DNA of 64,000 nt, taken from Bremerella volcania. GTDB lineage: Bacteria; Planctomycetota; Planctomycetia; Pirellulales; Pirellulaceae. The stretch lies in contig NZ_CP036289.1 in NCBI RefSeq assembly GCF_007748115.1, forward strand, positions 1,860,001-1,924,000. Reading direction: 5' to 3'. Every line of letters begins with the position of its first letter. The stretch's first letter is position 1. The position numbers were made by a program, and so were the translations under genes. Shown piece after piece: positions 32,130 through 63,614 of the stretch. The notes beneath the pieces were generated by a model. That model ran no database searches, was not told the DNA's origin, and saw only the letters and a program-made list of their open reading frames with translations.

Positions 32130-33320
32130 TCAACCCAACCAACTACCTGGATTTCTCAGTCGCCCAGCTAATGCCTCAAGAAAACGCGCGGCATCGGCTC
32201 CGAAAACGACACGGTGATCACAACTCAAAGTGAATGTGGTTGCTGTTCGATCGTCCGCGCCGATGGCGAGGATCGCCGCGGCGCCCAAAGGTACAATTGC
32301 CTCGAAACTGTGGACGATAGAAAAGGTGCCCAGATTGGAGACGTAAAAGGTTGCACCCTGGTAGTCCTCTGGCACGACGCGGCGGCTTCTCACTTTGCCA
32401 CGCAGAATTCTCCAATCTTCGGCGAGTTCCTCCAACGGCCGGTCGGCCGCGTCTCGCAACACCGGGGTGAGCAGTCCAGCTTCGAAGTCAACTGCGATAC
32501 CCACGTCGACCCTGTCGCGAATCGCCAAACCACTGGGAGTATGGCAGGCATTAAACCGCGGAAATTGCTTCACGGTCAGGGCACAGGCCCGTGCCAATAG
32601 AAGCGTGAGTGAGGTGTTCGTTTCTTTGGAAGTGGCCTGTAGCGCGTCCAGCGGAATGCGGGCGGTTACCCTGAAAGTCGGTGTGCCCTGTGTCGCGGTC
32701 ATGTTGTCCGCAACGGCGCGGTGCATCGGGGAAAGCGGCTCGATCTGATAGGGCGGGCCAAAATGCAGATCCGGTGACCGAGGTTGGAGTGCAGTCGCTA
32801 ACACCTCAGCTGCATGGATCATTCCACCAGCACCCGGGACCACATCCGCCAGATCGATGCCAAGATCAGCGGCGAGCGTGCGGGCATATGGAGATGCGGG
32901 CCGGCGGTTCGGATCGGTAAGTGTTCTTGGCGTGTTGCTCGGGGAAGTGGCTGCACGGGGAGCAGTTGTTGAAGGGGTTGCCGGATGCTTCGCAGGCCGC
33001 GCCCTTTCGACAGCAGGCTCAACCGCTGGTGCCTTTGGCTCGGTTTCCTCTTCGGAAGCGGATGGCGCAACCACCTCCTCGGCTGAATCGACCAGGTAGG
33101 CAATCGTTTGTCGCACCGGGATGTCCGTATCGATGGGCGCCAGCGGACCGGCAAGGAACCCGTCGGCAAATGACTCGACTTCAAGCACGGCTTTGTCCGT
33201 TTCGACTTCGGCCAGCACGTCACCACGCTTGACGGGGTCGCCTGGTTGCTTGAGCCACCGAACCAGACGGCCGGTGGCCATTGTGTCCGACAATGCCGGC
33301 ATGGGGACGGTTTGCTTCAT
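32130..33320 (-). CDS. pdhC: Pyruvate dehydrogenase E2 (dihydrolipoamide acetyltransferase)
   Basis: 396 residues: one lipoyl domain at 1-75 with the lipoylated lysine in ETDKAVLEVES, a Pro/Ala linker, a peripheral subunit-binding domain at about 135-170 (RRPASPYARTLAADLGIDL), and a catalytic domain to the end. The active-site motif reads DHRVVFGADAARF, with Phe where HRVVDG usually has Asp; the histidine is present. Start at 33320, overlapping the E1-beta stop by 4 bp. A gene for E3 (lipoamide dehydrogenase) is not in this window. Confidence 0.93.
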   Translation of the reverse strand: MKQTVPMPALSDTMATGRLVRWLKQPGDPVKRGDVLAEVETDKAVLEVESFADGFLAGPLAPIDTDIPVRQTIAYLVDSAEEVVAPSASEEETEPKAPAVEPAVERARPAKHPATPSTTAPRAATSPSNTPRTLTDPNRRPASPYARTLAADLGIDLADVVPGAGGMIHAAEVLATALQPRSPDLHFGPPYQIEPLSPMHRAVADNMTATQGTPTFRVTARIPLDALQATSKETNTSLTLLLARACALTVKQFPRFNACHTPSGLAIRDRVDVGIAVDFEAGLLTPVLRDAADRPLEELAEDWRILRGKVRSRRVVPEDYQGATFYVSNLGTFSIVHSFEAIVPLGAAAILAIGADDRTATTFTLSCDHRVVFGADAARFLEALAGRLRNPGSWLG

Positions 33321-34321
33321 GGCTTGACTCCTGGATCCGCCACTGAACATAACTGTTGTGCCTGGCTGATGACGTCTTCCACTGTAGGTATGCTGGCCGA
33401 CTCAAGCGAACCGTTGAACGGCGTCGGGATATCGAGCGCGGCCACTCGCTTTGCGGGAGCGTCGAGACTGAAGAAACAGCGTTCGCTTAACGTCGCCGCG
33501 ACTTCGGCGCCGGCTCCAGCGAATCGGCAGTCCTCTTCAACCACGATGAACCGGTGCGTCTTTTCGACCGACGTTATGCAGGTCTCCCAGTCGATGGGGC
33601 TCAGGCTACGCAGATCGATGACTTCCGCCTCAATTCCCACATCCGCCAATTGCCGCGCGGCGCGCAAGCATAGTTCGACGCTGCGCGAGTAACCGACCAG
33701 CGTGACGTCTCGGCCGGCTCGGCGAACCGCGGCGCGATGCATTGGCAGAGGAACGGCTTCAACGTCCAGTAGTCCCTTGCTGAAGTACAACAGATCGTGT
33801 TCAAGTAAGATGATCGGATCGTCACTGGCAATCGCCTGCCGGAGTTGCCAGTAGGCGTCCTGCGGAGTTGCGGGAACTGCGATGCGCAGGCCCGGTACGT
33901 TCATCAACGTATGCTCCAATCGCTGCGAATGCTGGGCGCCAAGTTGTTTGGCAACGCCACCAGGCATCCGGACCACTAGCGGCATGGGGAATTGGCCGCC
34001 CGACATGAAAGGGATCTTGGCGGCCATGTTGACCAACGGATCCAGCGCGAGCAAAGCGAAGTTGATGGTCATGATCTCCACAACAGGCCGCATGCCCGTC
34101 ATCGCGGCGCCAACGCCCAGTCCTGTAAAGCTGGCTTCGGAGATTGGCGTATCGCGCACTCTCCACGATCCATACTTGGCGTATAACCCTTCGGTCACCC
34201 GGTAAGATCCGCCGTAGAGACCGACGTCTTCTCCCAATATGAACACGGAGTCATCCTCCGCCAACTCGGCGTCCAAAGCCCGATTGAGGGCCTGCCAGTA
34301 GGTGATGTCTTCCGTCGCCAT
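33317..34321 (-). CDS. pdhB: Pyruvate dehydrogenase E1 component, beta subunit
   Basis: 334 residues with EDITYWQALNRALDAELAED, the E59-type motif FILGEDVGLYGGSYRVT, then SEASFTGLGVGAAMTG and the C-terminal domain (VTLVGYSRSVELCLRA, IDLRSLSPID). With the alpha subunit it decarboxylates pyruvate using thiamine diphosphate. Gap of 14 bp to pdhA. Confidence 0.95.
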   Translation of the reverse strand: MATEDITYWQALNRALDAELAEDDSVFILGEDVGLYGGSYRVTEGLYAKYGSWRVRDTPISEASFTGLGVGAAMTGMRPVVEIMTINFALLALDPLVNMAAKIPFMSGGQFPMPLVVRMPGGVAKQLGAQHSQRLEHTLMNVPGLRIAVPATPQDAYWQLRQAIASDDPIILLEHDLLYFSKGLLDVEAVPLPMHRAAVRRAGRDVTLVGYSRSVELCLRAARQLADVGIEAEVIDLRSLSPIDWETCITSVEKTHRFIVVEEDCRFAGAGAEVAATLSERCFFSLDAPAKRVAALDIPTPFNGSLESASIPTVEDVISQAQQLCSVADPGVKP

Positions 34322-34335
34322 GCGCTCCCCTCGCT

Positions 34336-35388
34336 CTATATCAGAGACTCATTTCGTCGATTAACGTGCAAACATCGCCAAGCCTCAGCCATTTCCGGAT
34401 CTGGACTCTGCTTTGCGAATTCGACCGCCTCCTGTACCAACTGCTGGACCTCGCTCTTGATGCCGTCCACCTCCGCGGGATCTAGGTGTCCGGCACCCAA
34501 TCCGTGTTCGGTAACGTGGTCAATCGCGTCTCGTCCAACACCTGCCAGCTGCTCGCGACTGGGATACGCTGGCACGGCTTCGCTGATCGCCGCTGAGACG
34601 GGATCAGTCGAGGCGTAGGCCCTCACCTCGATTTGGGGACGATAGCTTCCGGGGTCGGCCATCGAGTGGCCGCGCAAACGGTAAGTTTCGCATTCAACGA
34701 AGCGCGGCCCACCACCACTACGAATCTCTCGCAGCATCCTGCTCGTTACTTCGTGCACCTTAAACACATCCATGCCGTCTACGCGCTCAGCGGGGATGTT
34801 ATACGCCGCGGCGCGCCTAAAGACTTCAGTCACTGCCGAATGACGATGTATTTCCGTACCGATCTGGTAATGATTATTCTCACAGACAAATAGCACAGGC
34901 AATCGCCACAGTGCGGCCATGTTCAGCGACTCGTGGAAGGTACCTTGATTCACCGCGCCATCGCCGAAGAAGCAGATCGCCACCTCGGGCAGGTCGCGCA
35001 TCGCGATCGCGTAGCCGACGCCGATGGCCACAGGGTAGGTTTCACCCACAATCGCATAGCCGCCCATGAACCGACGCTCGCGATCGAACAAATGCATCGA
35101 TCCGCCCATTCCCCGACTAATCCCGTCACGACGGCCAAACAATTCGGCCATCACTTGTCGGGGCGGCGTGCCGCGAACGAGGGCATGAACGTGTTCGCGA
35201 TAAGTGCTAACGACATAGTCAGCTGGTTCCGTCGCATGGATCACTCCCACGGCCACCGCTTCCTCGCCGGGGTACAAATGCAGAAAGCCCGCGATGTTGC
35301 CCTTCGTGTACTGTTCCGCGGCTGCCTCCTCGAAGGCACGGGCCAGCAGCATATCGCGCAGAAATGCTCGCAGGGTGTCGCGATCCAT
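34336..35388 (-). CDS. pdhA: Pyruvate dehydrogenase E1 component, alpha subunit
   Basis: 350 residues. The thiamine diphosphate motif is FFGDGAVNQGTFHESLNMA followed by PVLFVCENN. The phospho-loop-like sequence RLRGHSMADPGSYR is present. Works with PdhB and PdhC. The ATG is one base after the stop of the AhpD-like gene, so translation is probably coupled. Confidence 0.95.
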   Translation of the reverse strand: MDRDTLRAFLRDMLLARAFEEAAAEQYTKGNIAGFLHLYPGEEAVAVGVIHATEPADYVVSTYREHVHALVRGTPPRQVMAELFGRRDGISRGMGGSMHLFDRERRFMGGYAIVGETYPVAIGVGYAIAMRDLPEVAICFFGDGAVNQGTFHESLNMAALWRLPVLFVCENNHYQIGTEIHRHSAVTEVFRRAAAYNIPAERVDGMDVFKVHEVTSRMLREIRSGGGPRFVECETYRLRGHSMADPGSYRPQIEVRAYASTDPVSAAISEAVPAYPSREQLAGVGRDAIDHVTEHGLGAGHLDPAEVDGIKSEVQQLVQEAVEFAKQSPDPEMAEAWRCLHVNRRNESLI

Positions 35389-35389
35389 G

Positions 35390-35740
35390 TCAGGCGTCCT
35401 CTTCCGGCAGGAACTCGTCTAAAGCTTTCATCAACGGAACGAGATACATCAACGCGGGCCCGCCGTGCATCACCACGGCCATGAAGCCGGCTTCGACAAT
35501 TTCATCGCGACTTGCCCCGGCCTTGATCGCATGCTTCACGTGCACGGCAATACACCATTCACACTGTCCGGCCACCGATATCCCGATGTTGATCAACTCC
35601 TTCTCCCGACTACTGAGCGCCGGGCCGGCCTCTGCCTTACTCACAAAAGACATAAAGGCATTGATTTCGGTCGGGTACTTCTCCTTGAGCCGATGTGTAA
35701 GTTCGGCAACTTCCTTCAGCTTGTCTCTCATTTCACCCAT
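35390..35740 (-). CDS. Carboxymuconolactone decarboxylase/AhpD-like protein
   Basis: 116 residues with the AhpD CxxC pair in GQCEWCIAVHVKHAIKAGA and the EIVEAGFMAVVMHGGPALMY segment. Such proteins are thiol peroxidase or disulfide-reductase helpers, and in AhpD itself accept electrons from lipoylated E2. Its position as the gene next to pdhA makes a link to the lipoyl-E2 plausible. AGGAG is eight bases before the ATG at 35740. Confidence 0.88.
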   Translation of the reverse strand: MGEMRDKLKEVAELTHRLKEKYPTEINAFMSFVSKAEAGPALSSREKELINIGISVAGQCEWCIAVHVKHAIKAGASRDEIVEAGFMAVVMHGGPALMYLVPLMKALDEFLPEEDA

Positions 35741-35889
35741 TCTGTCTTTCTCCTACCAAGCCTATCCTGGTTTGTTAATCCTGTTCGCAGCACGTCGTTC
35801 CGCAGCGCGAAACCAATGGCTCGCAATAGAGTTTCTTCGATCACTCCCACGGCGAACCCGCGTAGACCTTTACGTGGTTGTTTGCTCAT
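35728..35889 (-). CDS. Small basic protein, 53 residues, overlapping both neighbours
   Basis: A frame from the ATG at 35889 encodes MSKQPRKGLRGFAVGVIEET and then LLRAIGFALRNDVLRTGLTNQ, ending in WVK. It overlaps the AhpD-like start by 13 bp and the upstream chimeric ORF end by 20 bp, a pattern typical of coupled genes. It fills the gap exactly. No family recognised; coding status rests on position and length alone. Confidence 0.45.
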   Translation of the reverse strand: MSKQPRKGLRGFAVGVIEETLLRAIGFALRNDVLRTGLTNQDRLGRRKTEWVK

Positions 35890-36364
35890 GCGATTGAGCG
35901 CCTCCCAACAACCAATGCGATCGATTCATAATCCGATAGACGGCGACCTTGAGAAAATCATTGAAAACGAACCAGGCCAGTGCGTAAGCCCAAATGATGC
36001 CCGCGTACTTCCAACCAATGGGTTCCATGAAGACGCCGTAGACCGCGACCAAGGTTCCAACAATCATGGTCGCGATCGTGGCCCACATCAGCGCCGCCGA
36101 TGGCCAGGGTTGTTGCCAGAAATGTCTTTCGCCGGTCCTCGCCACGTACAGAGTCGAATGGCCTGCCACATCCAGCTTCAAGAAAATGAGAGATTGAATC
36201 AGTGGCCTGGGCAGTCCGAGCTGTTCGAAGATGAAAAAGAGCAAGAATGAAAGCTTTTGCCGAACCGCGTCTGCGATGGCGTCATCCAATGTACGTCGGT
36301 CGTCGGCGAGTCTCGTTCTACGTACACGGGCGGCTGGCGCAGCTTCTTGTGTCGTTGCGCTCAT
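35870..36364 (-). pseudogene. Chimera: BON-gene N-terminus fused to C-terminus of a H+-ATPase
   Basis: One open frame of 164 residues joins two unrelated pieces. Residues 1-39 are identical to the N-terminus of the BON-like protein at 57114-57416 (MSATTQEAAPAARVRRTRLA...). From FLLFFIFEQLG onward it matches the last 120 residues of plasma-membrane P-type H+-ATPases, including LDVAGHSTLYVARTGERHFW and WFVFNDFLKVAVYRIM. It is not a copy of the intact ATPase at 52969-55602 but a diverged paralogue. The join is at 36247/36248, exactly the edge of the 1325-bp repeat. Neither half can work alone. Confidence 0.85.
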
Positions 36365-36633
36365 GCGACATCCTCCTTCGTTTGTCTGATTTCTGCCAGC
36401 AGCAATTCAGCTTCGGCGAGCGCTGCGGCTGTGGGCAAAGCATCCCGCTGATAATCATCGCTGGCCGTTCCACAATCGTCGCCCCCAGCGATCCCGTTTG
36501 CCTCCGTCAGTGGCAGTTGCCGTCGGTTATCGTTGATCCCATGCCGTGGCGACCTCGATCGGCCGGCAGAAAGTTTAGAAAGCATGACCCTTCGTGCTTG
36601 GGCATCCGCCGGTAAGGGAAAAGCTGGCGACAT
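36361..36633 (-). CDS. Hypothetical protein, 90 residues, csrA operon copy 1
   Basis: Start at 36633 with AAGGAG seven bases upstream (MSPAFPLPADAQARRVMLSK). The C-terminal half is helical, with ALAEAELLLAEIRQTKEDVA. The stop overlaps the next ATG by 4 bp. No family recognised. It lies downstream of csrA, so co-transcription is likely. Identical to 57413-57685. Confidence 0.6.
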   Translation of the reverse strand: MSPAFPLPADAQARRVMLSKLSAGRSRSPRHGINDNRRQLPLTEANGIAGGDDCGTASDDYQRDALPTAAALAEAELLLAEIRQTKEDVA

Positions 36634-36674
36634 TGCGACTCCTTGAAAAATTGATCTTAGGTTTGTGAAACAGG

Positions 36675-36914
36675 CTACACGGGTTCGGTTGTTTGGGATT
36701 GCAGTACCATCGTTTGGCGGTTGCACCGATCGGCAACAAAGAGACCACCTTGTTCAGTCTGGATGCGTCGATGGACTTCTTCGCGGTAGATCGGCACATC
36801 GCTGGGCGCGTTGAAGCCGAGTCTTACGCGGTCGCCGTTTACGGCAATCACGACCAGTTCAATGTTCTCGCCAATCACGATTCGTTGTTTGGCTTTGCGA
36901 CTGAGAACGAGCAT
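36675..36914 (-). CDS. csrA: CsrA carbon storage regulator, copy 1
   Basis: 79 residues. The N-terminus MLVLSRKAKQRIVIGENIEL and the RNA-binding segment FNAPSDVPIYREEV match CsrA, with Arg in the YREEV position that contacts RNA in characterised members. CsrA dimers bind GGA motifs in mRNA leaders and control carbon storage and motility. AGGAGAAAACC precedes the ATG. The neighbours are small BON-like proteins, not flagellar genes. Identical to 57727-57966. Confidence 0.95.
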   Translation of the reverse strand: MLVLSRKAKQRIVIGENIELVVIAVNGDRVRLGFNAPSDVPIYREEVHRRIQTEQGGLFVADRCNRQTMVLQSQTTEPV

Positions 36915-36941
36915 GGTTTTCTCCTTCCATGAGATGGGCGA

Positions 36942-37316
36942 TTACGCCCGGTCAACTTCCATTTCCAATTGGTTATCGATGACCAAGTTGCCGTCCAGCA
37001 GGTGCCGCACGACGGTTTGGGCGATTTGTTTCATGTAGAAGCTTGGTACGCGGCCCCGCAGGATAAGCACGCATTCGCACACTTCACAGGAAACGTTACG
37101 GACGGCGTGATACGACGACGTGCGCAGCTCAGCACTCGCCTGGGCTTCAATAACTTGCTCATGTTCCCGCTGAACCGCGGCCACGGAAGCCGTTGTTTGC
37201 GGCGTGCCGTTCCGTTCAATCGATTTCGTTTGTTTCCGGCGCGACGTTCCCGCCCGGCGTTGGATTTTGGCAGAGCCATTGGTATCCGCAGGTCGCTCGA
37301 CGAGGATTTCGATCAT
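36942..37316 (-). CDS. BON-like small protein with CxxC motif, copy 1
   Basis: 124 residues. The first 70 are low-complexity, basic and polar. Residues 75-120 resemble a single BON fold: VSCEVCECVLILRGRVPSFY, then VVRHLLDG and VIDNQLEMEVD, with CEVCEC at the first strand. The cysteines could bind metal or form a disulfide. The ATG overlaps the stop of the 73-codon ORF by 4 bp. Identical to 57994-58368. Confidence 0.75.
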   Translation of the reverse strand: MIEILVERPADTNGSAKIQRRAGTSRRKQTKSIERNGTPQTTASVAAVQREHEQVIEAQASAELRTSSYHAVRNVSCEVCECVLILRGRVPSFYMKQIAQTVVRHLLDGNLVIDNQLEMEVDRA

Positions 37317-37534
37317 CGTGTTTCCGTCCGACGCAGGTCGTTGGTTTCAACTTCAACGGATTCGCTGTGTCCAGCATCCTTGCTACGAGGAGCAGGCACT
37401 CGCAAAGGCAAAGGGCCGTTATTATGACGGCCAGTGGGATGGGTCTTAAATCGCGTGGAAACGTAATCTCGAATGGCGGAATCCACTATGCCTGAGACCG
37501 CGCTGTCGTCTCGGCCAAAACTGGCATTTCGCAC
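37313..37534 (-). CDS. Possible 73-residue leader ORF, copy 1
   Basis: A frame of 73 codons (MRNASFGRDDSAVSGIVDSA...) ends in ATGA that overlaps the BON-like start, as coupled genes do. It is basic and has no recognisable fold. It recurs at 58365-58586 (identical) and, with three amino-acid changes, at 1168-1389 on the plus strand. Three changes out of three aligned substitutions are non-synonymous, so it may be a leader rather than a protein. Confidence 0.35.
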   Translation of the reverse strand: MRNASFGRDDSAVSGIVDSAIRDYVSTRFKTHPTGRHNNGPLPLRVPAPRSKDAGHSESVEVETNDLRRTETR

Positions 37535-37556
37535 CGCTGTGGGGCCTCGCTGCCAC

Positions 37557-38175
37557 TGGTGATTTCCGCCATTGAAGATTCCTGGATTTGCCGATTTCGT
37601 GCTTCTACGCCACCGGCGACAATTGCGGTGCGTCCGTGATCGACGTTTGTAATGCCTGTCTTGGAAACCAGTGTAAACGTCGATCAGGACAAGTGCCTGG
37701 CTGTGCTGAATTCATCCAATAACGACCACGCCATCGTGCTGTTGAACGAATGACGCTTGGCAATTGAACCTGCGCGCAGGAGAACAGCGATGTCGAAAAT
37801 GATTGCTTATGACCAAGACGCCCTGGAGGCCATCAAACGCGGTGTGGGCACGCTGTCGCGCGCGGTCACCAAAACCCTCGGTCCGCGCGGTCGAAATGTT
37901 CTGCTGCAAAAGAGCTTCGGTCCTCCGGTGGTTACCAAGGACGGCGTCACCGTGGCCAAAGAGATCGACTTGGAAGATCCCTTCGAGAACATCGGTGCTC
38001 GCATAGTCCGCGAAGTGGCTTCAAAAACGAACGATGTGGCGGGCGACGGAACTACGACCGCCACCGTGCTGGCCGAGGCTATCTTCAACGAAGGCTTGCG
38101 GGCCGTTATTGGTGGGATTCGGCCCGTTCACATGAAACAGGGCATCGAGCAGGCGGTCGACGACATCGTCGCGAA
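37557..38175. repeat. Perfect direct repeat of at least 619 bp, copy 1 (groEL 5' region)
   Basis: Identical to 63382-64000 (offset 25825), where the window ends, so the full length is unknown. It shares bases 37557-37572 (TGGTGATTTCCGCCAT) with the end of the 1325-bp repeat. The copied part covers 217 bp upstream of groEL and its first 129 codons. No CIRCE element is visible upstream. Confidence 0.93.
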
Positions 38176-39889
38176 GCTCAAAGCGAACTCCGTGCCTGTC
38201 AAGGGTAAAGACGACCTGACCAAAGTCGCTTCCATCGCCGCCAACAACGATCCCACCATCGGCCAACACGTGGCCGACGCGCTCGACAGAGTCGGCAAGG
38301 ACGGGGTCGTAACACTGGACGAAGGAAAGACGATGCGAACCGAGATCGAAGTTGTCGAAGGAATGCAGTTCGACAAAGGTTACCTGTCGCCGTACTTCGT
38401 CACCGACGCGTCCAAGATGGAGTGCGTGCTGGAAGAGCCGTACATTCTGGTCCACGAAAAGAAGATCACCAGCATCAAGGACATCGTGCCGCTGTTGGAG
38501 AAGGTGGTTCAGGCCGGCAGGTCGCTGTTGATCGTCGCCGAGGACGTGGAACGCGAGGCGCTGGCCACGCTGGTGGTGAACCGTCTGCGCGGGACGTTCC
38601 AGTGCTGTGCGGTCAAGGCTCCCGCCTACGGAGATCGCCGCAAAGCGATGATGGAAGACCTTGCGATTCTGACTGGCGGCACAGCGATCTTCGAGAGCCT
38701 AGGGATCAAGCTTGAATCGCTGCCGCTGACCGATCTCGGACAAGCGAAACAGGTGATTGTCGACAAAGACAACACCAAGGTCATCCAGGGTGGAGGAAAG
38801 AAAGCCGACATTCAGGCCCGGATCGCGCAGATCCAGCATGAGCTTGAAAAGTCCACCAGCGATTATGACCGCGAGAAACTCGAGGAGCGGATGCCGGACG
38901 GCGGTTCGCTGTCTGTTCGCTGCACCAGCGACGATGGCCAAGCGATCGTCGAAGTGACGGACTCGGGTGAGGGTATCGCGGCCGCGGATTTGGAGAGAGT
39001 TTTCGAACCGCTTTATACCCGCAAGACCAAGGGCATCGGCCTGGGACTCGCGGTTTCAAAACGATACGCAGAAATGAACCGAGGTCAGTTAGACGTCGAA
39101 AGCGAACTGGCGTGCGGCTGTTCCTTCCGCTGGAGCCCGAGTGAAGGGAGACAACCGATGGTCGAAACGAGTGGTTTGAATCTGTTGGTCGTCGATGACG
39201 AGCCAGATATGCGATCGAGCTTGTGGCGCATCTTGCGCGTGCAGGGTCATCAAGTGGCCGTGGCTGAGAGCGGTGAACAGGCCGTGGATTACGTCCGCGA
39301 CAACGAACCGGACGGTGTCCTCATGGACATCCGTATGCCCGGCATCGGCGGCGTGGAAGCATTCAGGAAAATTCGCGAAGCCTCGCCCGACACGTTCGTC
39401 ATCTTTATGACGGCGTACTCCGAAGCGGCCGAAGAAGCCCGCGATGAAGGAGCTAACGTACTTCCCAAGCCGCTCGACGTCGAAGGCATCTGCGAACTGA
39501 TCGAAGAGACCGCGGCGACTCGCCCCATCCTGGTCGTGGACGACGATACGGACTTCTGCTCGTCACTGGAGCGAGTCCTCGCCGGCAAGGGATACGACGT
39601 GCAGATAGCCAACACGCCGGCGCAGGCGATCGGATTCTTTCAGAAGCAGCCGCGGGCTTTGGTGTTGCTGGACATGAAGCTGAACGGGGCTGCCGGCCTG
39701 GAAGTGCTCCACGAGCTAAAGCAGCTCAACGCCGCGGCGGTGGTCGTGCAGATGTCCGGTTACTCCGAGCTGGAAGAGGACATGCGCCAAGGCCTGGAAA
39801 TGAATGCCTACGGCTATCTGACCAAGCCGTTCGATGGCGACCAGATGCTGGCCATGTTGCAGCAAGCCATGCGCGAACCGAAGAAATGA
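37790..39889 (+). pseudogene. GroEL N-terminal two thirds fused to kinase HATPase and two REC domains
   Basis: A single open frame of 699 residues. Residues 1-367 are Gro[18 protein letters not shown], then [50 protein letters not shown] and [19 protein letters not shown], up to [12 protein letters not shown]. It lacks the last 180 residues, so the equatorial ATP domain is incomplete. At about 38891 it switches to [11 protein letters not shown], the middle of a histidine kinase ATPase domain, with G1 box TDSGEGI and G2 box [12 protein letters not shown] but no N box. Two REC domains follow ([13 protein letters not shown] with Asp in MDIRMPG, and [13 protein letters not shown] with Asp in LLDMKLNG). 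The DNA before the junction is a perfect copy of the second groEL start at 63615. I regard it as a rearrangement product. The GroEL and HATPase parts should be inactive. Confidence 0.8.
39158..39889 (+). CDS. Tandem-REC response regulator, from internal start
   Basis: Inside the fused frame, ATG 39158 follows AAGGGAG by eight bases, so a protein of 243 residues with two REC domains ([18 protein letters not shown]...) could be made independently. Both REC domains keep the acidic pair, the phosphoacceptor Asp, Thr (FMTAYS) or Ser (QMSGYS), and Lys (PKPLD, TKPFD). No DNA-binding domain follows. This is probably the original gene start before the fusion. Confidence 0.55.
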
Positions 39890-40428
39890 ACACTGAAGGC
39901 GGACGAATCATAGCCGAACAACTGACCGCCGTGCTGATCGTGGACGACGATGAGGATTTTTGCGCCAGCGTGCGCCGATTCCTGAAGCGTGACGGCCACC
40001 GAGTCGACATCGCCAATACGGCGACCGAAGCCCTCGACCGCCATAACTGGTCAGACTACTTTGCCATCCTGGTCGATCGCCGCTTGCCCGACGGTTCGGA
40101 AGAAGACCTGCTTCCACAACTCAAGCAACTCGCCCCCCACGCCTCGCTGGTCGTCATCACCGGCCATGCCGATATAGACAGCGTGATCGTGGGCGTACGG
40201 TTAGGCGCTGAAGATTATTTGACTAAACCGATCGAACCGGATGCTCTTCGCGCATGGGTGCGTCGCACAGCGGAACTGAAACAAACCCAGTTGAAATTGC
40301 AAGAATCCGAAAAGCGAGCGCGGCAAGCGGAGCGGTTGGCGGCGGTCGGTCAAATGCTGACCGCGGTATCGCACGAAAGCCGCAATGCGCTGCAACGCGG
40401 CCTAGCCTGTTTGGAGATGTTGCGTTAG
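39886..40428 (+). pseudogene. REC-HisKA hybrid kinase, truncated before its ATPase domain
   Basis: 180 residues. N-terminal REC (VLIVDDDEDFCASV, phosphoacceptor Asp in LVDRRLPDG, TGHAD, TKPIEP), then a coiled linker (KLQESEKRARQAERLAAVG) and the H-box AVSHESRNALQR, where it stops at CLEMLR. The HATPase domain is absent; the stop lies 3 bp from the end of the converging ABC permease gene. The ATG overlaps the preceding stop by 4 bp. The homologous kinase at 55870-57047 shows the full layout. It may still be phosphorylated by another kinase. Confidence 0.8.
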
Positions 40429-40431
40429 CCC

Positions 40432-41538
40432 TCAGTACATCCGCCGACGGAACAGCCATGCGGCCGAGCTGAGCGTGACCGCGGCGATAACCGCCATCGG
40501 CCAGAATTGGTCGAGCAGCAAGCTGAATGATGCACCTTCGAGGAACACGCCGCGCAGCACGACCAGAAAGTATCGCAGCGGATCACCGTACGTAATGGCC
40601 TGGACCGCGGGAGGCATATTGGCGATGGGGGTCGAGAATCCGGAGAGAATGATCGCCGGCACTAGAAAGAGAAAGGCGCCGAGCAACGCTTGCTGCTGCG
40701 TCACGGCTAGCGACGAGATCATCAGTCCCACGCCAATGGCGGCGAGCACGAACAACACAACTCCGAAATACAGCGTGAGCAGGGACCCGACAAACGGGAC
40801 GCGGAACCAGAAGACGGCGGCTGCAATGATGACCGTCGCTTCGGCAACGCCGATGATGAAACCTGGAGTTGCCTTACCAACCAGGATCTCCCAGGGACGA
40901 TACGGCGTCACCAGCAACTGATCGAAGGTGCCCTGTTCCCGTTCGCGAGCCACCGACAGCGCAGTGACCAGCATCGTCACGACCAGCGTCAAAATGCCGA
41001 CGATGCCGGGCACAATGAACCAGCGGCTCTGTTGGTTCGGGTTGAACCACGAGCGGACTTCCAAGCGCGCGGGTGCCGCAGCGAGCCCGCGATCAGACGA
41101 CCACTCGGCGTTAAAGTCATTGACGATGCGACGGGCGTAGCCGAGCGTGATCAGTGCCGTGTTGGAATCGCGGCCGTCCAAAATGACTTGCACGTCAGTT
41201 CGCCCGTCGCGATGCAAATCGCGAGTGAAGGTGGGGCCTATGTGCAGCACGACCAGCGCCTTGCGACTGTAAACCAACGGCGCAATTTCGCCGTCGTGAG
41301 TAATCGTGGCGACGCGGCGGAAGTTGCGCGAACCGTCGAACCGTGCTACCAGGTCGCGCGAGGCCTCGCTGGGACTCTCGTTGTATACCGCCAGCGGAAC
41401 ATCCGTCACGTCGAACGTCGCCGCATAACCGAACACCAGCAATTGAATGATCGGCGGGCCAATAATCACAAACCGGCTCTTCGGGTCCTTCAGCAGGGCC
41501 AGAAATTCCTTGTGAATCAGTGCGAGTAGTCGTGACAC
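40432..41538 (-). CDS. ABC-2 type export permease (YbhR/YhhJ-like) 2
   Basis: 368 residues. An N-terminal helix precedes a large extracytoplasmic loop (DVPLAVYNESPSEASRDLV and following), then five helices with AREREQGTFDQLLVTPYRP, the usual ABC-2 coupling motif. Works with the second permease, the tandem ATPase and HlyD as a multisubunit exporter. Last gene of the twelve-gene array; its end converges with the truncated kinase. Confidence 0.9.
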   Translation of the reverse strand: MSRLLALIHKEFLALLKDPKSRFVIIGPPIIQLLVFGYAATFDVTDVPLAVYNESPSEASRDLVARFDGSRNFRRVATITHDGEIAPLVYSRKALVVLHIGPTFTRDLHRDGRTDVQVILDGRDSNTALITLGYARRIVNDFNAEWSSDRGLAAAPARLEVRSWFNPNQQSRWFIVPGIVGILTLVVTMLVTALSVAREREQGTFDQLLVTPYRPWEILVGKATPGFIIGVAEATVIIAAAVFWFRVPFVGSLLTLYFGVVLFVLAAIGVGLMISSLAVTQQQALLGAFLFLVPAIILSGFSTPIANMPPAVQAITYGDPLRYFLVVLRGVFLEGASFSLLLDQFWPMAVIAAVTLSSAAWLFRRRMY

Positions 41539-51666: not shown

Positions 51667-52972
51667 CAACGTCGTCCTTTTCAGTGGGAGTTGGGCATTC
51701 GCGTTGACAGAATATGATTTCGACAATCGCGATGGCGGCAAAGAATCCAATCAACCAGAACAAGGTTGTTGGCTCGTTGGCTGCCAAGTGCGTTATCAAC
51801 AGGCTGAGCGTCGTCAACATCAAACCGATGCCCAGCAATATGAGCGATAGTTTGCTATTGGTGCGAGATCTCAATCGCAGATTCGCGACCGAAACACCAA
51901 GCGACACTAGCAGAAAAGTTGCGCTGGAGAAGGTCGCGATCGTTTCCAGTCCGCCGAGTATTGTGAAGACCATCGCCAAGCCCGTTAACGCGACCACCGC
52001 CACCCAGGGAACGTCGGCTCGGCTGCGAAACGAAAAAGCCGCTGGCATTCTTTTTCCAGTTGCCATTTCGGCCATCATCCGCGACGCGCCGAATGCGGTC
52101 GCATTGATGGCAGAGGAAGTCGCCAACAGCGCGGCGATGTCGACGAGGATTTGACCGGCGTTTCCGAGCGCCGGTTTCGCGGCGACCGACAGTGCGTATT
52201 CTTCAGCAGCGGTCAACTCTTCAACCGTCAGGTTGCCGACCGCGACTAGCGCCACTCCAATGTAAATCAGCGAAGTCACCACAATCGAACCGTAAATCCC
52301 TCGCGGAATGTTGCGGGTCGGGTTCTCCGTTTCCAGAACGGCGTTCGTAATCAACTGAAATCCCTCAAACGCCACAAAGATCATTGCACCTGCCACAAAA
52401 ACCGACGACACGCCTTTCTCAAACACGGGCACGAGATGATCTTGCTTGATGTAGAACGCTCCGGCGATGGCGAACAGCCCCAGCAAGATGACCTTCGTCG
52501 CGACGATGAGGTCCTCGGTGACTCCGCTCGCATGAACGCCTCGCAGGTTGACGACCATGAAGAAGAGCAACACGCCGGCGGACAACACCATGCGGACCGC
52601 CGGAGATTCGGCACTTCCGAGCAGGTGAGCCCCGTAGGCCCCAAATGTGTACGCGTACAACGCAAGCGTGCCGACATATCCGACCACTACCGCCCATCCG
52701 GTGATGCCAGCGACGTTGGGGTGCTTGGGAAACGCGCGTTCCAGGTACGTAAAGCTAGCTCCGTCACTATGGAATCCGAGTGCCAACTTTACGTAAGAGT
52801 ACCCTGCTGCGAGCGCCACCAGGCTGCCAATCGCGAACGCCAACGGCGCAGCATGCCCTGCGATCTCAACGGTCATGCCCAGCACCGAAAAGATGCCGCC
52901 ACCAATCATCCCCCCGATGCCCATCGCCAGGAGTTCGGGAATCCCGAGTTTTTGGGTACCGGTCGCGTTCAC
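51656..52972 (-). CDS. APC-family amino acid permease
   Basis: 438 residues with twelve helices. N-terminal signature LAMGIGGMIGGGIFSVLGM, then VAFEGFQLITNAVLETENPTRNIPRGI. A cationic or neutral amino acid carrier; the substrate cannot be told. It overlaps the H+-ATPase stop by 4 bp, so a proton-coupled partner is plausible. Confidence 0.88.
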   Translation of the reverse strand: MNATGTQKLGIPELLAMGIGGMIGGGIFSVLGMTVEIAGHAAPLAFAIGSLVALAAGYSYVKLALGFHSDGASFTYLERAFPKHPNVAGITGWAVVVGYVGTLALYAYTFGAYGAHLLGSAESPAVRMVLSAGVLLFFMVVNLRGVHASGVTEDLIVATKVILLGLFAIAGAFYIKQDHLVPVFEKGVSSVFVAGAMIFVAFEGFQLITNAVLETENPTRNIPRGIYGSIVVTSLIYIGVALVAVGNLTVEELTAAEEYALSVAAKPALGNAGQILVDIAALLATSSAINATAFGASRMMAEMATGKRMPAAFSFRSRADVPWVAVVALTGLAMVFTILGGLETIATFSSATFLLVSLGVSVANLRLRSRTNSKLSLILLGIGLMLTTLSLLITHLAANEPTTLFWLIGFFAAIAIVEIIFCQRECPTPTEKDDVDAT

Positions 52973-55602
52973 TCAACCACCTCGTGCATGTGCTCGCGGC
53001 CCAACAGCCACTTGGTTCTGTGCAGCATACGATAGACGGACACCTTGAGGAAGTCGTTGAAGACAAACCACACGGTGGCGTAGATATAGATGTACAAGGC
53101 GTATTTCCAACCGACCGGCTCCATGAACAAACCATAGACGGCGATCAGCGTGCCGATAATGCGAGTCGTCATCGCGGGAATGAACAACTTGAGGGAGGGG
53201 TACGGTCGATGCCAGAAGTGTCGCTCGCCGGTGCGGGTCACGTAGATCGTGGAATGCCCCGCCACGTCCAGCTTGAGGAAGATAATGGCCTGAATCAACG
53301 CGTGAGAGAACTTCAATTCCTGAAGGACAAAGAAGAGCAAAAAGGACGACGCCACGCCCGCCAGACCAAGGACGGTAGCGATCGTCAATACTTCACGCAT
53401 GTTCCAGCGAACTGGCTTCGGTTCTATCTTGGCGTTGTCATACGCGATGGCCATGATCGGAATGTCGTTCAGCAGCGCGAGAATGATGATCATGAGCGCC
53501 GTCACGGGATAAAAGTTGAACGCCACGATCGCGAGTGTCATGAATAAGATCACGCGCAGCGTTTCCGCAATGCGGAAGATGGCATAGCTTTTCATCCGCC
53601 CAAAGATCATGCGCGCTTCCTCCAAAGCGCGGATGATCACTGAAAGTCCGGGTTGGAGCAGCACGACGTCGGCGGCGGCTCGCGCCGCATCGGTCGCGCC
53701 CGACACCGCGATCCCAGCATCGGCTTTCTTGAGAGCCGGTGCGTCGTTCACACCGTCGCCCGTCATGGCCACGATGTGATCGTGCTTCTGGAGGCGATCG
53801 ACGATCTTGTATTTGTCCTCCGGGAAGACCTGGGCGAAGCCGCCCGTTTCTTCGATCAGGCGAATGATCTCCGATTCGTGTCGACGGACGAAACCGTCAT
53901 GCGGGCGAAGCTGCCGCAACCTCTCTTCCAGTTTCTCGACGACTTCCTCCGCGACCGCGTGGACCTCGTCGGGAGAAGCTTCGGGCTTGAGCCGGCCGTA
54001 TAACGACTCCGTCACGACGTCAGCGATCAGGAGCAACTCGACCGGCTTGTCTTCCTTCAGCTCGGTGTGGTCGCGAATCTCGCCTTCGATCCCCAACACT
54101 TCGGCAATCTGGCGAGCGATCGCCAGGTTGTCACCCGTGATCATCTTGATGTCGAGGCCGAGGTTCTTCGCCTCTGCGATGGTGTCCGCGGAGTCATCGC
54201 GCGGTGGATCAAAGAACGGCAACAAGCCCACGAACCGAAAGGCCGAATCTGTCGGCTGCTTGAACGCTACGCCCAGCGTGCGATAGCCCTTTTTGGCAAA
54301 GAGTTCGACCTGTTGAGTGGCTTGCTCTTCAACCGCCGGATCGTCGCAGAGGGCGAGGATAGCTTGGGGTGCGCCTTTCGAGACAACGAGCTCGCCGTCA
54401 TTGCCGGTGAGCGAGGCTTCGGTTCGTTTGCGTACGGGGTCGAAAGGGACAAACTCCTTCAATTGATAGGCACCAAGACGGCTATGTCCGCCCGACTTGT
54501 TGAGAGCATCGAAGATGGGCATCTCGAGGGGATCGTTGTTTTCTTCGCGACTAGCTAGGGCCGCGTAAAACACGGTATCGTCCGGCGAATAGCCGTTGAA
54601 CGTGACCGGATCGCCAAGCTGCATTTTGTTTTTGGTCAACGTCCCGGTTTTGTCGCTACACAGGATGTCGACTCCCGCGAGTTCTTCGATCGCGACCAGC
54701 CGGCTAACGATCGCCTGGTGCTTGGCCAACCGCACGGCACCCACCGCCATCGTGACCGACAACACGGCGGGTAGGGCAACGGGAATCGAAGCCACGGTCA
54801 ATACCAGCGAAAACCGCAGAATCTCCATCAGAGAATCGTGCCGGTAGAGGCCCGTAAAGATGATCAACACAACCATCACTGCCGATATCAGAATCAAGTA
54901 GTTGCCGACATTGACGACGGCTTTCTGGAAGTGGCTTCGCTGCTGCTTCTCGGCCTGCGCCACCAAGGCCACGGTGTTGCCGAAGAACGTGTTCAAGCCG
55001 GTCGCGGTTACGACCGCCGTCATCTCGCCCATTTTCACGACCGAATTCGCATAGGCGACGTCACCCGCGGACTTGTCCGCTGGCATCGATTCACCGGTTA
55101 ACGCGGATTGATCGGCTTGCAGGTAGCCGCCCTCGACCAGCTTGACGTCGGCCGGAACGATATTGCCGATTCGCAATTTGACAATGTCGCCGGGTACGAG
55201 CTGCCGCGCCGGGATTTCCTGCCATTTGCCGTTACGGAGCGCAAGCGCCGTCCGGGCGAGCTTTTCCTTCAGCAGTTTGAGTGCTTTGAGAGCCGATGCT
55301 TCCTGCCGAAAGTCGATCACGACGTTTACCAGCAGCAAGATGATAATAATCGTGAAGTCTTCCCACTTCTGCACGGCGGCCGAGAGAATCGCCGCCGCCT
55401 CGATCATCCAGGGAATCGGGCCCCAGAACCGTTTCAGAATCCGTTTAAACGTTGATTCCTCTTTTTCCGGAATCTCGTTCAATCCGTATCGCTGTTGCCG
55501 CCGCTGTACCTCGTCGCTGGCGAGTCCTGTAGACGCATTGCCTGCGAGGCGATCAAGGGCTTCTTCCACCGACAGCTTTTGGAAATCAGCGTTCTCTGGC
55601 AT
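52969..55602 (-). CDS. Plasma-membrane type H+-exporting P-type ATPase
   Basis: 877 residues, the P3A type. Phosphorylation site CSDKTGTLTKNKM at about residue 319, TGDGVNDAPALKKADAGIAVS at about 615, ten helices, and a long C-terminal region (LDVAGHSTIYVTRTGERHFW). Pumps protons out at the cost of ATP. First gene of the twelve-gene array. Only the last helix region has a second, diverged copy, fused at 35870-36364. Confidence 0.95.
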   Translation of the reverse strand: MPENADFQKLSVEEALDRLAGNASTGLASDEVQRRQQRYGLNEIPEKEESTFKRILKRFWGPIPWMIEAAAILSAAVQKWEDFTIIIILLLVNVVIDFRQEASALKALKLLKEKLARTALALRNGKWQEIPARQLVPGDIVKLRIGNIVPADVKLVEGGYLQADQSALTGESMPADKSAGDVAYANSVVKMGEMTAVVTATGLNTFFGNTVALVAQAEKQQRSHFQKAVVNVGNYLILISAVMVVLIIFTGLYRHDSLMEILRFSLVLTVASIPVALPAVLSVTMAVGAVRLAKHQAIVSRLVAIEELAGVDILCSDKTGTLTKNKMQLGDPVTFNGYSPDDTVFYAALASREENNDPLEMPIFDALNKSGGHSRLGAYQLKEFVPFDPVRKRTEASLTGNDGELVVSKGAPQAILALCDDPAVEEQATQQVELFAKKGYRTLGVAFKQPTDSAFRFVGLLPFFDPPRDDSADTIAEAKNLGLDIKMITGDNLAIARQIAEVLGIEGEIRDHTELKEDKPVELLLIADVVTESLYGRLKPEASPDEVHAVAEEVVEKLEERLRQLRPHDGFVRRHESEIIRLIEETGGFAQVFPEDKYKIVDRLQKHDHIVAMTGDGVNDAPALKKADAGIAVSGATDAARAAADVVLLQPGLSVIIRALEEARMIFGRMKSYAIFRIAETLRVILFMTLAIVAFNFYPVTALMIIILALLNDIPIMAIAYDNAKIEPKPVRWNMREVLTIATVLGLAGVASSFLLFFVLQELKFSHALIQAIIFLKLDVAGHSTIYVTRTGERHFWHRPYPSLKLFIPAMTTRIIGTLIAVYGLFMEPVGWKYALYIYIYATVWFVFNDFLKVSVYRMLHRTKWLLGREHMHEVVE

Positions 55603-55748: not shown

Positions 55749-55910
55749 ACGAACGCCTGCACGTCCGACGTTGACGCCGTGATCAGTTTGCGGCCATTGA
55801 ACGTGGCAAACTGGATGGCACCAGGATGGTCGGTTAGGTATTTGACAAACTACTTGTAGTCGATGGCGGCTAACTCCAAATTCGACTCGGTCCACTTAAC
55901 CAGATAGATT
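55749..55910 (-). pseudogene. Decayed 160-bp copy of the secreted-protein gene at 59289-59840
   Basis: About 162 bp align with 59341-59502 (offset 3592) with several substitutions; a TAG and other changes break the frame. It lies at the 3' end of the kinase gene, which reads into it and stops at 55870. I see nothing else coding in 55603-55748. Confidence 0.8.
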
Positions 55911-57113: not shown

Positions 57114-57416
57114 CTACTCAGTCCGGTCGCATTCTACCCGGTCGTCAATTTCCTGGATGCCATCCAGGTTTTCAATCAGCGACAACAGCAGCCGCTTCAA
57201 TCGATACGTGGGGACGCGTCCTTCGAGCTTCACAATACCGTTGCAACATTCGCACCGCACATCATTGAAATAAAACCTGCTGGGCCCCCGCTCGTCTACT
57301 GAAAGCTTTTGCCGAACCGCGTCTGCGATGGCGTCATCCAATGTACGTCGGTCGTCGGCGAGTCTCGTTCTACGTACACGGGCGGCTGGCGCAGCTTCTT
57401 GTGTCGTTGCGCTCAT
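57114..57416 (-). CDS. BON-like small protein with CxCC motif
   Basis: 100 residues. Basic N-terminal 40 residues (MSATTQEAAPAARVRRTRLA), then a BON-like fold with DVRCECCNGIVKLEGRVPTY, LLLSLIENLDGIQEIDDRV. Three cysteines cluster in the first strand. The second of two such proteins in this operon. The intact form of the gene whose first 39 codons are also found fused at 35870-36364. Confidence 0.75.
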   Translation of the reverse strand: MSATTQEAAPAARVRRTRLADDRRTLDDAIADAVRQKLSVDERGPSRFYFNDVRCECCNGIVKLEGRVPTYRLKRLLLSLIENLDGIQEIDDRVECDRTE

Positions 57417-57685
57417 GCGACATCCTCCTTCGTTTGTCTGATTTCTGCCAGCAGCAATTCAGCTTCGGCGAGCGCTGCGGCTGTGGGCAAAGCATCCCGC
57501 TGATAATCATCGCTGGCCGTTCCACAATCGTCGCCCCCAGCGATCCCGTTTGCCTCCGTCAGTGGCAGTTGCCGTCGGTTATCGTTGATCCCATGCCGTG
57601 GCGACCTCGATCGGCCGGCAGAAAGTTTAGAAAGCATGACCCTTCGTGCTTGGGCATCCGCCGGTAAGGGAAAAGCTGGCGACAT
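57413..57685 (-). CDS. Hypothetical protein, 90 residues, csrA operon copy 2
   Basis: Identical to 36361-36633. Start at 57685 with AAGGAG upstream; overlaps the BON-like start by 4 bp. Polar first half, helical second half (AEAELLLAEIRQTKED). No known family. Confidence 0.6.
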   Translation of the reverse strand: MSPAFPLPADAQARRVMLSKLSAGRSRSPRHGINDNRRQLPLTEANGIAGGDDCGTASDDYQRDALPTAAALAEAELLLAEIRQTKEDVA

Positions 57686-57726
57686 TGCGACTCCTTGAAA
57701 AATTGATCTTAGGTTTGTGAAACAGG

Positions 57727-57966
57727 CTACACGGGTTCGGTTGTTTGGGATTGCAGTACCATCGTTTGGCGGTTGCACCGATCGGCAACAAAGAGACCAC
57801 CTTGTTCAGTCTGGATGCGTCGATGGACTTCTTCGCGGTAGATCGGCACATCGCTGGGCGCGTTGAAGCCGAGTCTTACGCGGTCGCCGTTTACGGCAAT
57901 CACGACCAGTTCAATGTTCTCGCCAATCACGATTCGTTGTTTGGCTTTGCGACTGAGAACGAGCAT
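57727..57966 (-). CDS. csrA: CsrA carbon storage regulator, copy 2
   Basis: 79 residues, identical to 36675-36914, with the same AGGAG site. CsrA features: MLVLSRKAKQRIVIGENIEL and APSDVPIYREEV. The operon here also has the two-component kinase after it, so its expression or activity may be linked to a phosphorelay; this is inference. Confidence 0.95.
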   Translation of the reverse strand: MLVLSRKAKQRIVIGENIELVVIAVNGDRVRLGFNAPSDVPIYREEVHRRIQTEQGGLFVADRCNRQTMVLQSQTTEPV

Positions 57967-57993
57967 GGTTTTCTCCTTCCATGAGATGGGCGA

Positions 57994-58368
57994 TTACGCC
58001 CGGTCAACTTCCATTTCCAATTGGTTATCGATGACCAAGTTGCCGTCCAGCAGGTGCCGCACGACGGTTTGGGCGATTTGTTTCATGTAGAAGCTTGGTA
58101 CGCGGCCCCGCAGGATAAGCACGCATTCGCACACTTCACAGGAAACGTTACGGACGGCGTGATACGACGACGTGCGCAGCTCAGCACTCGCCTGGGCTTC
58201 AATAACTTGCTCATGTTCCCGCTGAACCGCGGCCACGGAAGCCGTTGTTTGCGGCGTGCCGTTCCGTTCAATCGATTTCGTTTGTTTCCGGCGCGACGTT
58301 CCCGCCCGGCGTTGGATTTTGGCAGAGCCATTGGTATCCGCAGGTCGCTCGACGAGGATTTCGATCAT
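57994..58368 (-). CDS. BON-like small protein with CxxC motif, copy 2
   Basis: 124 residues, identical to 36942-37316. Motif CEVCEC, then a BON-like strand-helix pattern. Overlaps the 73-codon ORF stop by 4 bp and precedes csrA by 27 bp. Confidence 0.75.
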   Translation of the reverse strand: MIEILVERPADTNGSAKIQRRAGTSRRKQTKSIERNGTPQTTASVAAVQREHEQVIEAQASAELRTSSYHAVRNVSCEVCECVLILRGRVPSFYMKQIAQTVVRHLLDGNLVIDNQLEMEVDRA

Positions 58369-58586
58369 CGTGTTTCCGTCCGACGCAGGTCGTTGGTTTC
58401 AACTTCAACGGATTCGCTGTGTCCAGCATCCTTGCTACGAGGAGCAGGCACTCGCAAAGGCAAAGGGCCGTTATTATGACGGCCAGTGGGATGGGTCTTA
58501 AATCGCGTGGAAACGTAATCTCGAATGGCGGAATCCACTATGCCTGAGACCGCGCTGTCGTCTCGGCCAAAACTGGCATTTCGCAC
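58365..58586 (-). CDS. Possible 73-residue leader ORF, copy 2
   Basis: Identical to 37313-37534. Ends in ATGA, overlapping the BON-like start. Basic, without known fold. May be a leader rather than a protein. Confidence 0.35.
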   Translation of the reverse strand: MRNASFGRDDSAVSGIVDSAIRDYVSTRFKTHPTGRHNNGPLPLRVPAPRSKDAGHSESVEVETNDLRRTETR

Positions 58587-58837
58587 CGCTGTGGGGCCTC
58601 GCTGCCACTGGTGATTTCCGCCATCGCGTATTGGTCAGCCATTCGATTCACGCCGATGGCCACCAGAGGACAGAATGCCCTTATGCAAACACAATCATTG
58701 CACCACACTGGCGGCCCATTTCTGATTCGGACGAGCATCAACGATGGCGATCCGGTCGATCGTCGTGAGCTCTGCCGCTCGATTCGTCGTCTCGGCGGCA
58801 TACAAACCGACGGCGGTTTCGCATCTCCCCCACGGCG

Positions 58838-59277
58838 GTGCAGCGGGCGGTGGCTTGGGAAATCCTCGGTGAGAAGTATGGCACGAGGTACATCGCCGCA
58901 GCGCGTCACCAGGGGATGGAAATGGCGGGGTTGCGTAAGAGTGGTTACGTGCGGTGCCGGCATTACAGCGTCGAATTCATCGGCGGCCCGTTCGATGGTC
59001 ATGTCGAAATGTTCCCGTTCCGGCAGAGCAGTTGCCCCAAGATCTGATGTGGTTCGTCGGCGCAAACGTCTTTCACATCCTGGACGGGAAGGGCGAGCGA
59101 CCGAAGGAGCCGATTACGAGCATTGCAGTTTATGAACGCAAACGGCGACGGGCTGTATGGTGTTACTTGTTCGTCGGTGCAATGTCACCCCAGGAATTAT
59201 GCGAGCAGCTCGCTCACGGCGATTTCTTTGTCGGGCCGGCGCCGCGTTCAACTTTGCGTTGCAAGACGAAGCACTGA
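58838..59277 (+). pseudogene. Broken hypothetical protein gene
   Basis: Two frames joined near 59020-59040 give one protein-like sequence: VAWEILGEKYGTRYIAAARH, then YSVEFIGGPFDGHVEMFPF, shift, then LPQDLMWFVGANVFHILDG and AVWCYLFVGAMSPQEL. The FIGGPFDGH pattern recalls small hypothetical proteins I have seen in planctomycetes; function unknown. The 58625-58837 stretch upstream has no clean frame. Confidence 0.5.
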
Positions 59278-59288
59278 TACCAGTGCGA

Positions 59289-59840
59289 CTAACGCCGCTT
59301 TAAGCTAAAGTCGCCGGTGAACATCTCCTGATGTTCAAGGACGAACGCTTGCACGTCCGTTGTTGACGCCGTGATCAGTTTGCGGCCATTGAACGTCGCA
59401 AACTGGATGGCGCCAGGATGGTCGGTCAAGTATTTGTCAAACCACTTGTAGTCGATGGCGGCTAACTCCAATTTCAGCTCGGTCCGCTTCACCCGATAGA
59501 TCGTATGGATCGGCACCAGGTGGAACTTGTAGAAGCCGGCGGTATCGTCCTCGGTTTTTTGCTCTGGGAATAAATCGAGGAACAGCGTTCCGTTCAAATC
59601 GGCAAGACGGGCGACAAAGCGTCCCTGGTGGCCATCCTTGTCGGTGTACACCAGCCGATACGACTTCGCATCTCGTTTGGTGAATTCCCACGTGTCTTGT
59701 CCATTGGCCTGTACCCACGTCCCCAGCACGTTCGCATCAAAGACCAACTGCTGGTCCGTGTAGACCGGATTCAACGACGGGATATATCCCGCCAGCAACG
59801 TCAGCGCGACGAGCGCCCAACAACGCAGTTTCGTCTTCAT
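59289..59840 (-). CDS. Secreted hypothetical protein
   Basis: 183 residues with a Sec-type signal (KLRCWALVALTLLAGYIPSL). The mature part has a lipocalin-like or beta-rich pattern: LGTWVQANGQDTWEFTKRD, LVYTDKDGHQGRFVARLADL, FLDLFPEQK, ending in QEMFTGDFSLKRR. At the cleavage site LLAG is followed by Tyr; a Cys there would make a lipobox. Overlaps the nicotinamidase fusion stop by 4 bp. Function not known. Confidence 0.7.
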   Translation of the reverse strand: MKTKLRCWALVALTLLAGYIPSLNPVYTDQQLVFDANVLGTWVQANGQDTWEFTKRDAKSYRLVYTDKDGHQGRFVARLADLNGTLFLDLFPEQKTEDDTAGFYKFHLVPIHTIYRVKRTELKLELAAIDYKWFDKYLTDHPGAIQFATFNGRKLITASTTDVQAFVLEHQEMFTGDFSLKRR

Positions 59841-61795: not shown

Positions 61796-61947
61796 CTAAC
61801 TGCAATTTTGAATTTCGACGTGCCCTTCTGACAGGACGACGGAATCGTTCGGTGGCGCCGGCTGGCTGGTCCAGGAAGCTGAACTCGTCCTCCTGCGCAA
61901 AAGGAAAGAAGCGGTTTCTATCTTACAAGCGTGATGTTGAACGTCGG

Positions 61948-63153: not shown

Positions 63154-63614
63154 TGTTGCCTTTCAAGAAACCGACGTGTTCTCCAACAGATTATGGCAAG
63201 AGTGTTGAGCAGGCATGTATCGGCAAAGGAATGAGTTTGTTGTGGCGGAAACCACCAATGGCAAGGTCGCATGCGACGTACCCAACAGTCTGGCCCGCTA
63301 TGAGCGGGGAACAAACCTCTTTTCTGGTTCGTTCCTGCCCGCCTATGGGAACACGAGCTGTGGCGATTTGCAACTCCGTCGTGGTGATTTCCGCCATTGA
63401 AGATTCCTGGATTTGCCGATTTCGTGCTTCTACGCCACCGGCGACAATTGCGGTGCGTCCGTGATCGACGTTTGTAATGCCTGTCTTGGAAACCAGTGTA
63501 AACGTCGATCAGGACAAGTGCCTGGCTGTGCTGAATTCATCCAATAACGACCACGCCATCGTGCTGTTGAACGAATGACGCTTGGCAATTGAACCTGCGC
63601 GCAGGAGAACAGCG
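63154..63614. other. Intergenic region between MAT and groEL
   Basis: No gene recognised in 63154-63381. A 6-bp stem (CCCGCT-ATG-AGCGGG) at about 63294-63308 precedes a short pyrimidine run and could be a weak terminator on the plus strand. The last 230 bp (63382 on) are the groEL upstream region, identical to 37557-37789, with a frame of 33 codons (MPVLETSVNVDQDK...) of doubtful coding value. Confidence 0.5.

Follow-up and report, generated by a model that had tools for sequence, protein, structure and literature searches.

A probable recombination scar between related stress-gene clusters in Bremerella volcania

How did a copy of a stress-gene cluster come to lie 21 kb from its near relative with 4773 bp missing from its middle and with other genes fused in frame to both of its ends? 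The question is raised by a 64,000-bp stretch of the planctomycete Bremerella volcania (the window; bases 1860001-1924000 of the 6,496,182-bp single-contig genome, all coordinates being on the window scale unless stated otherwise), in which a copy at 36248-38893 (copy A) brings together two pieces that stand apart in the cluster at 57.3-64.5 kb (copy B). A preliminary description of this DNA had taken copy A to be the 57.3-64 kb locus minus 4773 bp, as expected from deletion between short direct repeats after duplication, and had left open a recent event or an assembly artefact. As analysed here, copy A reads as a recombinant spliced between a diverged groEL on its right and the tail of a P-type ATPase gene on its left, and not as a plain duplicate. 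The stretch 36248-38893 is probably the scar of a short-repeat deletion combined with a transfer that had one homologous and one illegitimate end. The features on which the argument draws are collected in Table 1.

Table 1. Features of copies A and B and of the third partial copy, in window coordinates.
Feature	Coordinates	Strand	Remarks
Third, older partial copy	1093-1422	-	differs from 58332-58661 at 7 of 330 positions (97.9% identity)
Chimeric frame: 39 aa of BON gene fused in frame to last ~125 aa of P-type ATPase	35870-36364	-	left join 36247/36248
Segment R, copy A: start of BON-domain gene, CsrA, second BON-like gene	36248-37572		100% identical to 57300-58624; CsrA PF02599
16-bp overlap TGGTGATTTCCGCCAT at deletion join	37557-37572		
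groEL leader and 5' part of groEL	37573-38691	+	identical to 63398-64516
Open chimeric frame of 710 aa with a truncated GroEL, the remnant of a HATPase_c domain and two receiver domains	37757-39889	+	
Diverged groEL allele stretch	38692-38893	+	differs from intact groEL at 29 sites, 24 of them third codon positions; end of homology at 38893
Segment R, copy B, intact context	57300-58624		complete BON gene 57114-57416
16-mer, left repeat, undeleted locus	58609-58624		
Spacer between copy B 16-mers, not in copy A	58625-63381		4757 bp (4773 bp with one 16-mer)
16-mer, right repeat, undeleted locus	63382-63397		
Intact groEL start	63582-64000	+	extends past window to 65234, 550 aa

Identity tracts, the 16-bp join and its polarity

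Comparison of the window with itself gave two tracts free of mismatches, one of 1325 bp (36248-37572 against 57300-58624, segment R) and one of 619 bp (37557-38175 against 63382-64000, where the window ends). When the DNA past the window was included, the second tract, on the groEL side, ran to 38691/64516 and measured 1135 bp, so that copies A and B show 0 differences across 2444 bp; homology then reaches beyond the end of identity to 38893/64718. By this measure the duplicate is recent, in agreement with what the preliminary description had supposed. In segment R, Pfam yields no match for the second BON-like gene itself, whose name comes from our reading and from its homologue at 72.5-72.9 kb. 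Apart from the repeats of copies A and B and the third copy, no repeats of at least 300 bp at 97% identity or more were found in the 316 kb examined.

The two tracts meet in copy A, where they share the 16-mer TGGTGATTTCCGCCAT, which stands on the + strand at 37557, 58609 and 63382, at no other site in the window, and nowhere on the - strand. The base preceding 37557 differs from that preceding 63382, and the base following 37572 differs from that following 58624, which sets the length of the overlap at exactly 16 bp; by our own estimate an overlap of this length at one given join would arise by chance with a probability of about 4e-9. The 16-mer is also the longest direct repeat within 57.3-64.0 kb, the runners-up being 12 bp, among repeats whose copies lie more than 300 bp apart. 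The join in copy A thus holds exactly one repeat, the parent locus holds two direct copies, and the distance between these (63382-58609) is the 4773 bp missing from copy A. That the two repeats abut with 16 bp in common, and that the 16-mer recurs at both places in the other locus, had been noticed earlier and proved correct to the base.

The direction of the change may be read from the third copy. It spans the 16-mer with one mismatch and then continues for 37 bp, mismatch-free, into sequence that has no counterpart in copy A. Since this copy, at 97.9%, is more diverged from copy B than copy A is, and extends past the 16-mer, the undeleted order would predate the separation of A and B, and the deletion looks derived from an undeleted ancestral order. 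At 1093 the third copy itself abuts the last part of an ABC-2 permease gene, the two being joined through about 9 bp. At this join point GCCGATGGC (9 bp) is common to the segment and to a permease paralogue at 40432-41538, from which we infer the 9-bp homology, the paralogue substituting for the resident gene. Pieces of the same cluster would accordingly appear to have been joined to other genes at least twice.

The sequence absent from copy A (58625-63381) holds hypothetical and secreted-looking open reading frames (ORFs), a broken gene for a nicotinamidase-NAPRTase fusion and an archaeal-type MAT gene. No transposase or recombinase domain was found in the five ORFs or ORF pieces tested from 58.6-63.4 kb, which were the nicotinamidase piece, a piece with the nicotinamidase end and the NAPRTase start, the NAPRTase piece, MAT and one domain-less ORF, smaller ORFs having been left out. 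The nicotinamidase-NAPRTase gene is spread across three ORFs at 59837-61795, with an in-frame stop and a frame break by our reading, and is probably a pseudogene. The MAT gene at 61948-63153 encodes an archaeal-type S-adenosylmethionine synthetase (PF01941), and the nearest relatives returned were 71% and 65% identical, in planctomycete metagenome-assembled genomes. A 161-bp direct repeat of 90.7% identity (55749-55909 and 59341-59501) has one copy inside the ORF at 59289-59840; its second copy separates the ATPase gene from the kinase gene.

The two ends of copy A

At its right end copy A departs from copy B within groEL. Compared with the complete groEL at 63582-65234, the 202 bp of 38692-38893 contain 29 substitutions and no gaps, of which five lie up to 38746 and 24 in 38775-38881; they fall 1, 4 and 24 times on codon positions 1, 2 and 3 and lead to five amino-acid changes. 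Because 24 of the 29 are at third codon positions and no gaps occur, the stretch would come from a separate, once functional groEL, and sequencing error as the source of the differences is ruled out on the same grounds. It is 86% identical to copy B, the best-scoring other matches being 72-76% identical (DNA compared, best 30 matches), and no near-identical second place for it was found in the genome. The switch from B-identical to diverged groEL falls between 38692 and 38775, as in homeologous recombination. Past 38893 the same frame stays open through the last part of a histidine-kinase ATPase domain and then through two receiver domains. With a divergent groEL allele and a kinase gene in one fusion, recombination into a resident paralogue is indicated: the resident gene would already have been, or would have become, a groEL-kinase fusion, and the recent segment would have recombined into it inside groEL.

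The left end is of another kind. There, the ATPase tail of the chimeric frame shares 63% amino-acid identity across 121 aa with the tail of the ATPase at 52969-55602; its Pfam match to Cation_ATPase_C is below the cut-off (E 2.8e-4), whereas the homologous ATPase is firmly assigned. No long match is visible at the left join, in a comparison made without the lost resident ATPase sequence. Copy A therefore carries a gene fusion at each end, BON-ATPase and groEL-kinase. By chance both joins would be in frame in about 1 in 9 cases, so that no selection is needed, and the two fusions are probably by-products without function.

The earlier equation of copy A with the 57.3-64 kb locus minus 4773 bp thus holds exactly for 36248-38691 and fails over the diverged groEL stretch. 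Likewise, in the view of a short-repeat deletion after duplication, the recent duplicate lacking 4773 bp between 16-bp repeats is borne out, as is, through the third copy, the polarity; the plain copied segment is not, given the groEL-kinase fusion with its diverged groEL allele on the right.

How the scar may have arisen

In the explanation that we favor, a stretch of the stress-gene cluster at 57.3-64.5 kb would recently have been placed in a second, related cluster, either by copying or by re-import. The sequence itself shows that the right side of the segment lies in a groEL which switches to a diverged one, that the left side cuts into a P-type ATPase gene, that 4773 bp are gone at the longest direct repeat available, with one 16-mer kept, and that the older third copy has the undeleted order. 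The deletion may have come about when the 16-mers paired, through single-strand annealing or replication slippage, and it may have preceded, accompanied or closely followed the transfer. The transfer itself may have been either one-ended repair synthesis or homology-facilitated illegitimate recombination.

The processes involved are all known, and no new mechanism is revealed. RecA-independent deletion between short repeats (by slipped misalignment or single-strand annealing) resembles the present case in that one repeat is kept, the other is lost with the spacer, and the longest available repeat is used; here, in contrast, the deletion goes together with the transfer of the segment to another site. 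In PMC4627823, RecA-independent recombination between repeats is described as dependent on distance in E. coli, for which slippage the 4.8-kb spacer would be long, whereas no such dependence is described for Deinococcus, where single-strand annealing was proposed. Homology-facilitated illegitimate recombination, as described in PMC3240628, is matched by one end in a homologous gene and the other without a long match visible at the join, and a homologous crossover at one end is indeed present, with groEL identity to 38691 followed by the diverged allele; unlike in that system, an identical source lies in the same genome and the case is read from sequence. Microhomology-mediated break-induced replication, finally, yields copied segments with short-homology joins, as seen here, whereas one end of copy A resolves in a homeologous groEL and not by microhomology.

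Template switching at microhomology is a live alternative. A single copying event of this type, in which a broken end invaded the 57.3 kb locus and was copied, jumped 4773 bp via the 16-bp match, went on into groEL and was finally sealed through recombination in the resident groEL, differs from the favored explanation in the number of steps only, and we hold it to be a tentative possibility, clearly the less probable of the two. It would account for joins that lie within 2.65 kb of each other and for the equal identity of both parts to copy B, and the separate third copy, too, has a join of about 9 bp; an ordinary later deletion, however, likewise predicts that the join falls exactly on the longest direct repeat, and one step is not required. 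The hypothesis of an assembly problem, in the form of a chimeric copy or of 1.1-1.3 kb repeats that were misphased (with the deletion really at 57-64 kb and the full order at 36 kb), has in its favor that the two pairs of perfect direct repeats exceed the span of short reads and that their order (R, groEL, R, groEL) would let a short-read graph permit both paths, as reasoned and not computed. Overlap and k-mer assemblers, however, are not known to join at 16 bp. The diverged groEL stretch, with no near-identical second place from which it could have been drawn, the single contig of the genome and the clean reading frames of the tested backbone also speak against such a problem. In the backbone beside the island described below, 36 of 41 ORFs of at least 150 aa from the closed genome G006 were matched at >70% identity, each of the 36 by a single unbroken alignment, in a count from which weaker pieces had been dropped beforehand. 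The artefact named in the preliminary description is thereby weakened and judged unlikely, although a swap of the locus that carries the deletion still has to be reckoned with. Least probable is the reverse event, the insertion of a 4757-bp element into the 57-64 kb locus with a 16-bp duplication. Exact 16-bp direct repeats do flank the segment, but the older third copy already holds the sequence to the right of the 16-mer, no transposase or recombinase domain was met with among the ORFs tested, and target duplications of 16 bp are unusual; we regard a mobile-element insertion as disfavored and very improbable.

Several points weigh against the favored explanation itself, a deletion with a transfer of one homologous and one illegitimate end. 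It relies on the assembled sequence. The 16-bp join is compatible with a deletion after duplication or along with it, both of which leave the same sequence. The polarity depends on one short partial copy, and gene conversion between A and B could blur their ages. The gene order of the resident locus before the event was not found in the 11 groEL loci read, and the kinase-receiver part of copy A has, among 296 genomes at E 1e-40, two relatives besides itself, at 35% identity.

Island context and outlook

The stretch 36248-38893 probably sits inside a horizontally acquired island. An extra stretch of 138,109 bp (genome 1836638-1974746; window scale -23362 to 114746) stands where G006, whose backbone is 85-86% identical, has 1017 bp, the edges being the ends of BLAST matches, and it is absent at this site from both closed same-genus genomes read there (G006 and G008). 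The right edge adjoins a tRNA-Arg gene (1974757-1974832 of the genome) and carries two large serine recombinases with Resolvase, Recombinase and zinc-ribbon domains; as attachment-site repeats, 12-bp matches only were found. Segment R had no match in any of eight further genomes of the genus, one of which has a completeness of only 68%, and a query of 36.0-39.2 kb was matched there by its groEL part only. Besides A and B, the region holds a third related BON/CsrA cluster, of greater divergence, at about 70.4-73 kb (DNA 77% and 71% identical in pieces, BON proteins 49% and 52%).

The gene order of the window was absent from the 11 loci compared with its ORFs, namely seven of the 80 MAT-gene loci kept from 531 confirmed and four others; in L077 groEL lies 6.6 kb from a MAT gene, and the other compared loci share single genes or an efflux gene only. 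Among the 11 groEL loci, L180 resembles the window in that a csrA-like gene lies 1.8 kb upstream of groEL and keeps its relative orientation; a groES-like ORF (so named by our reading) separates the two, and BON, NAPRTase and MAT genes are absent. The stretch 33000-41000 had no match in the plasmid collection (near mode), and one 25-mer searched in viral contigs gave 0 matches. Elsewhere in the island, matches to Wadjet JetA3, JetB3 (weak, E 2.4e-4), JetC3 and JetD3 occur at 89207-97085 on the window scale (L020:9207-17085) and adjoin AAA genes, one of them RuvB-like. A 24-bp exact direct repeat, starting AGTGGTTTACCCACTA, is present at 21774 and 23821.

It is conceivable, as a far-fetched extension, that the island's related stress-gene clusters repeatedly swap short pieces via short homologies and so make in-frame chimeras, and that the GroEL-kinase-receiver fusion is expressed and useful. 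New in the present case are the change within groEL to a diverged allele, the polarity as read from a third copy and the island context. The starts of the perfect 1325-bp direct repeats are separated by 21,052 bp (36248-57299), a candidate for excision or amplification, and the prediction follows that this DNA can be lost or amplified between them. As a natural case, the locus illustrates clearly the decay and reshuffling of a gene-rich island, since the polarity, the repeat length and the homeologous switch point can be read from one sequence.

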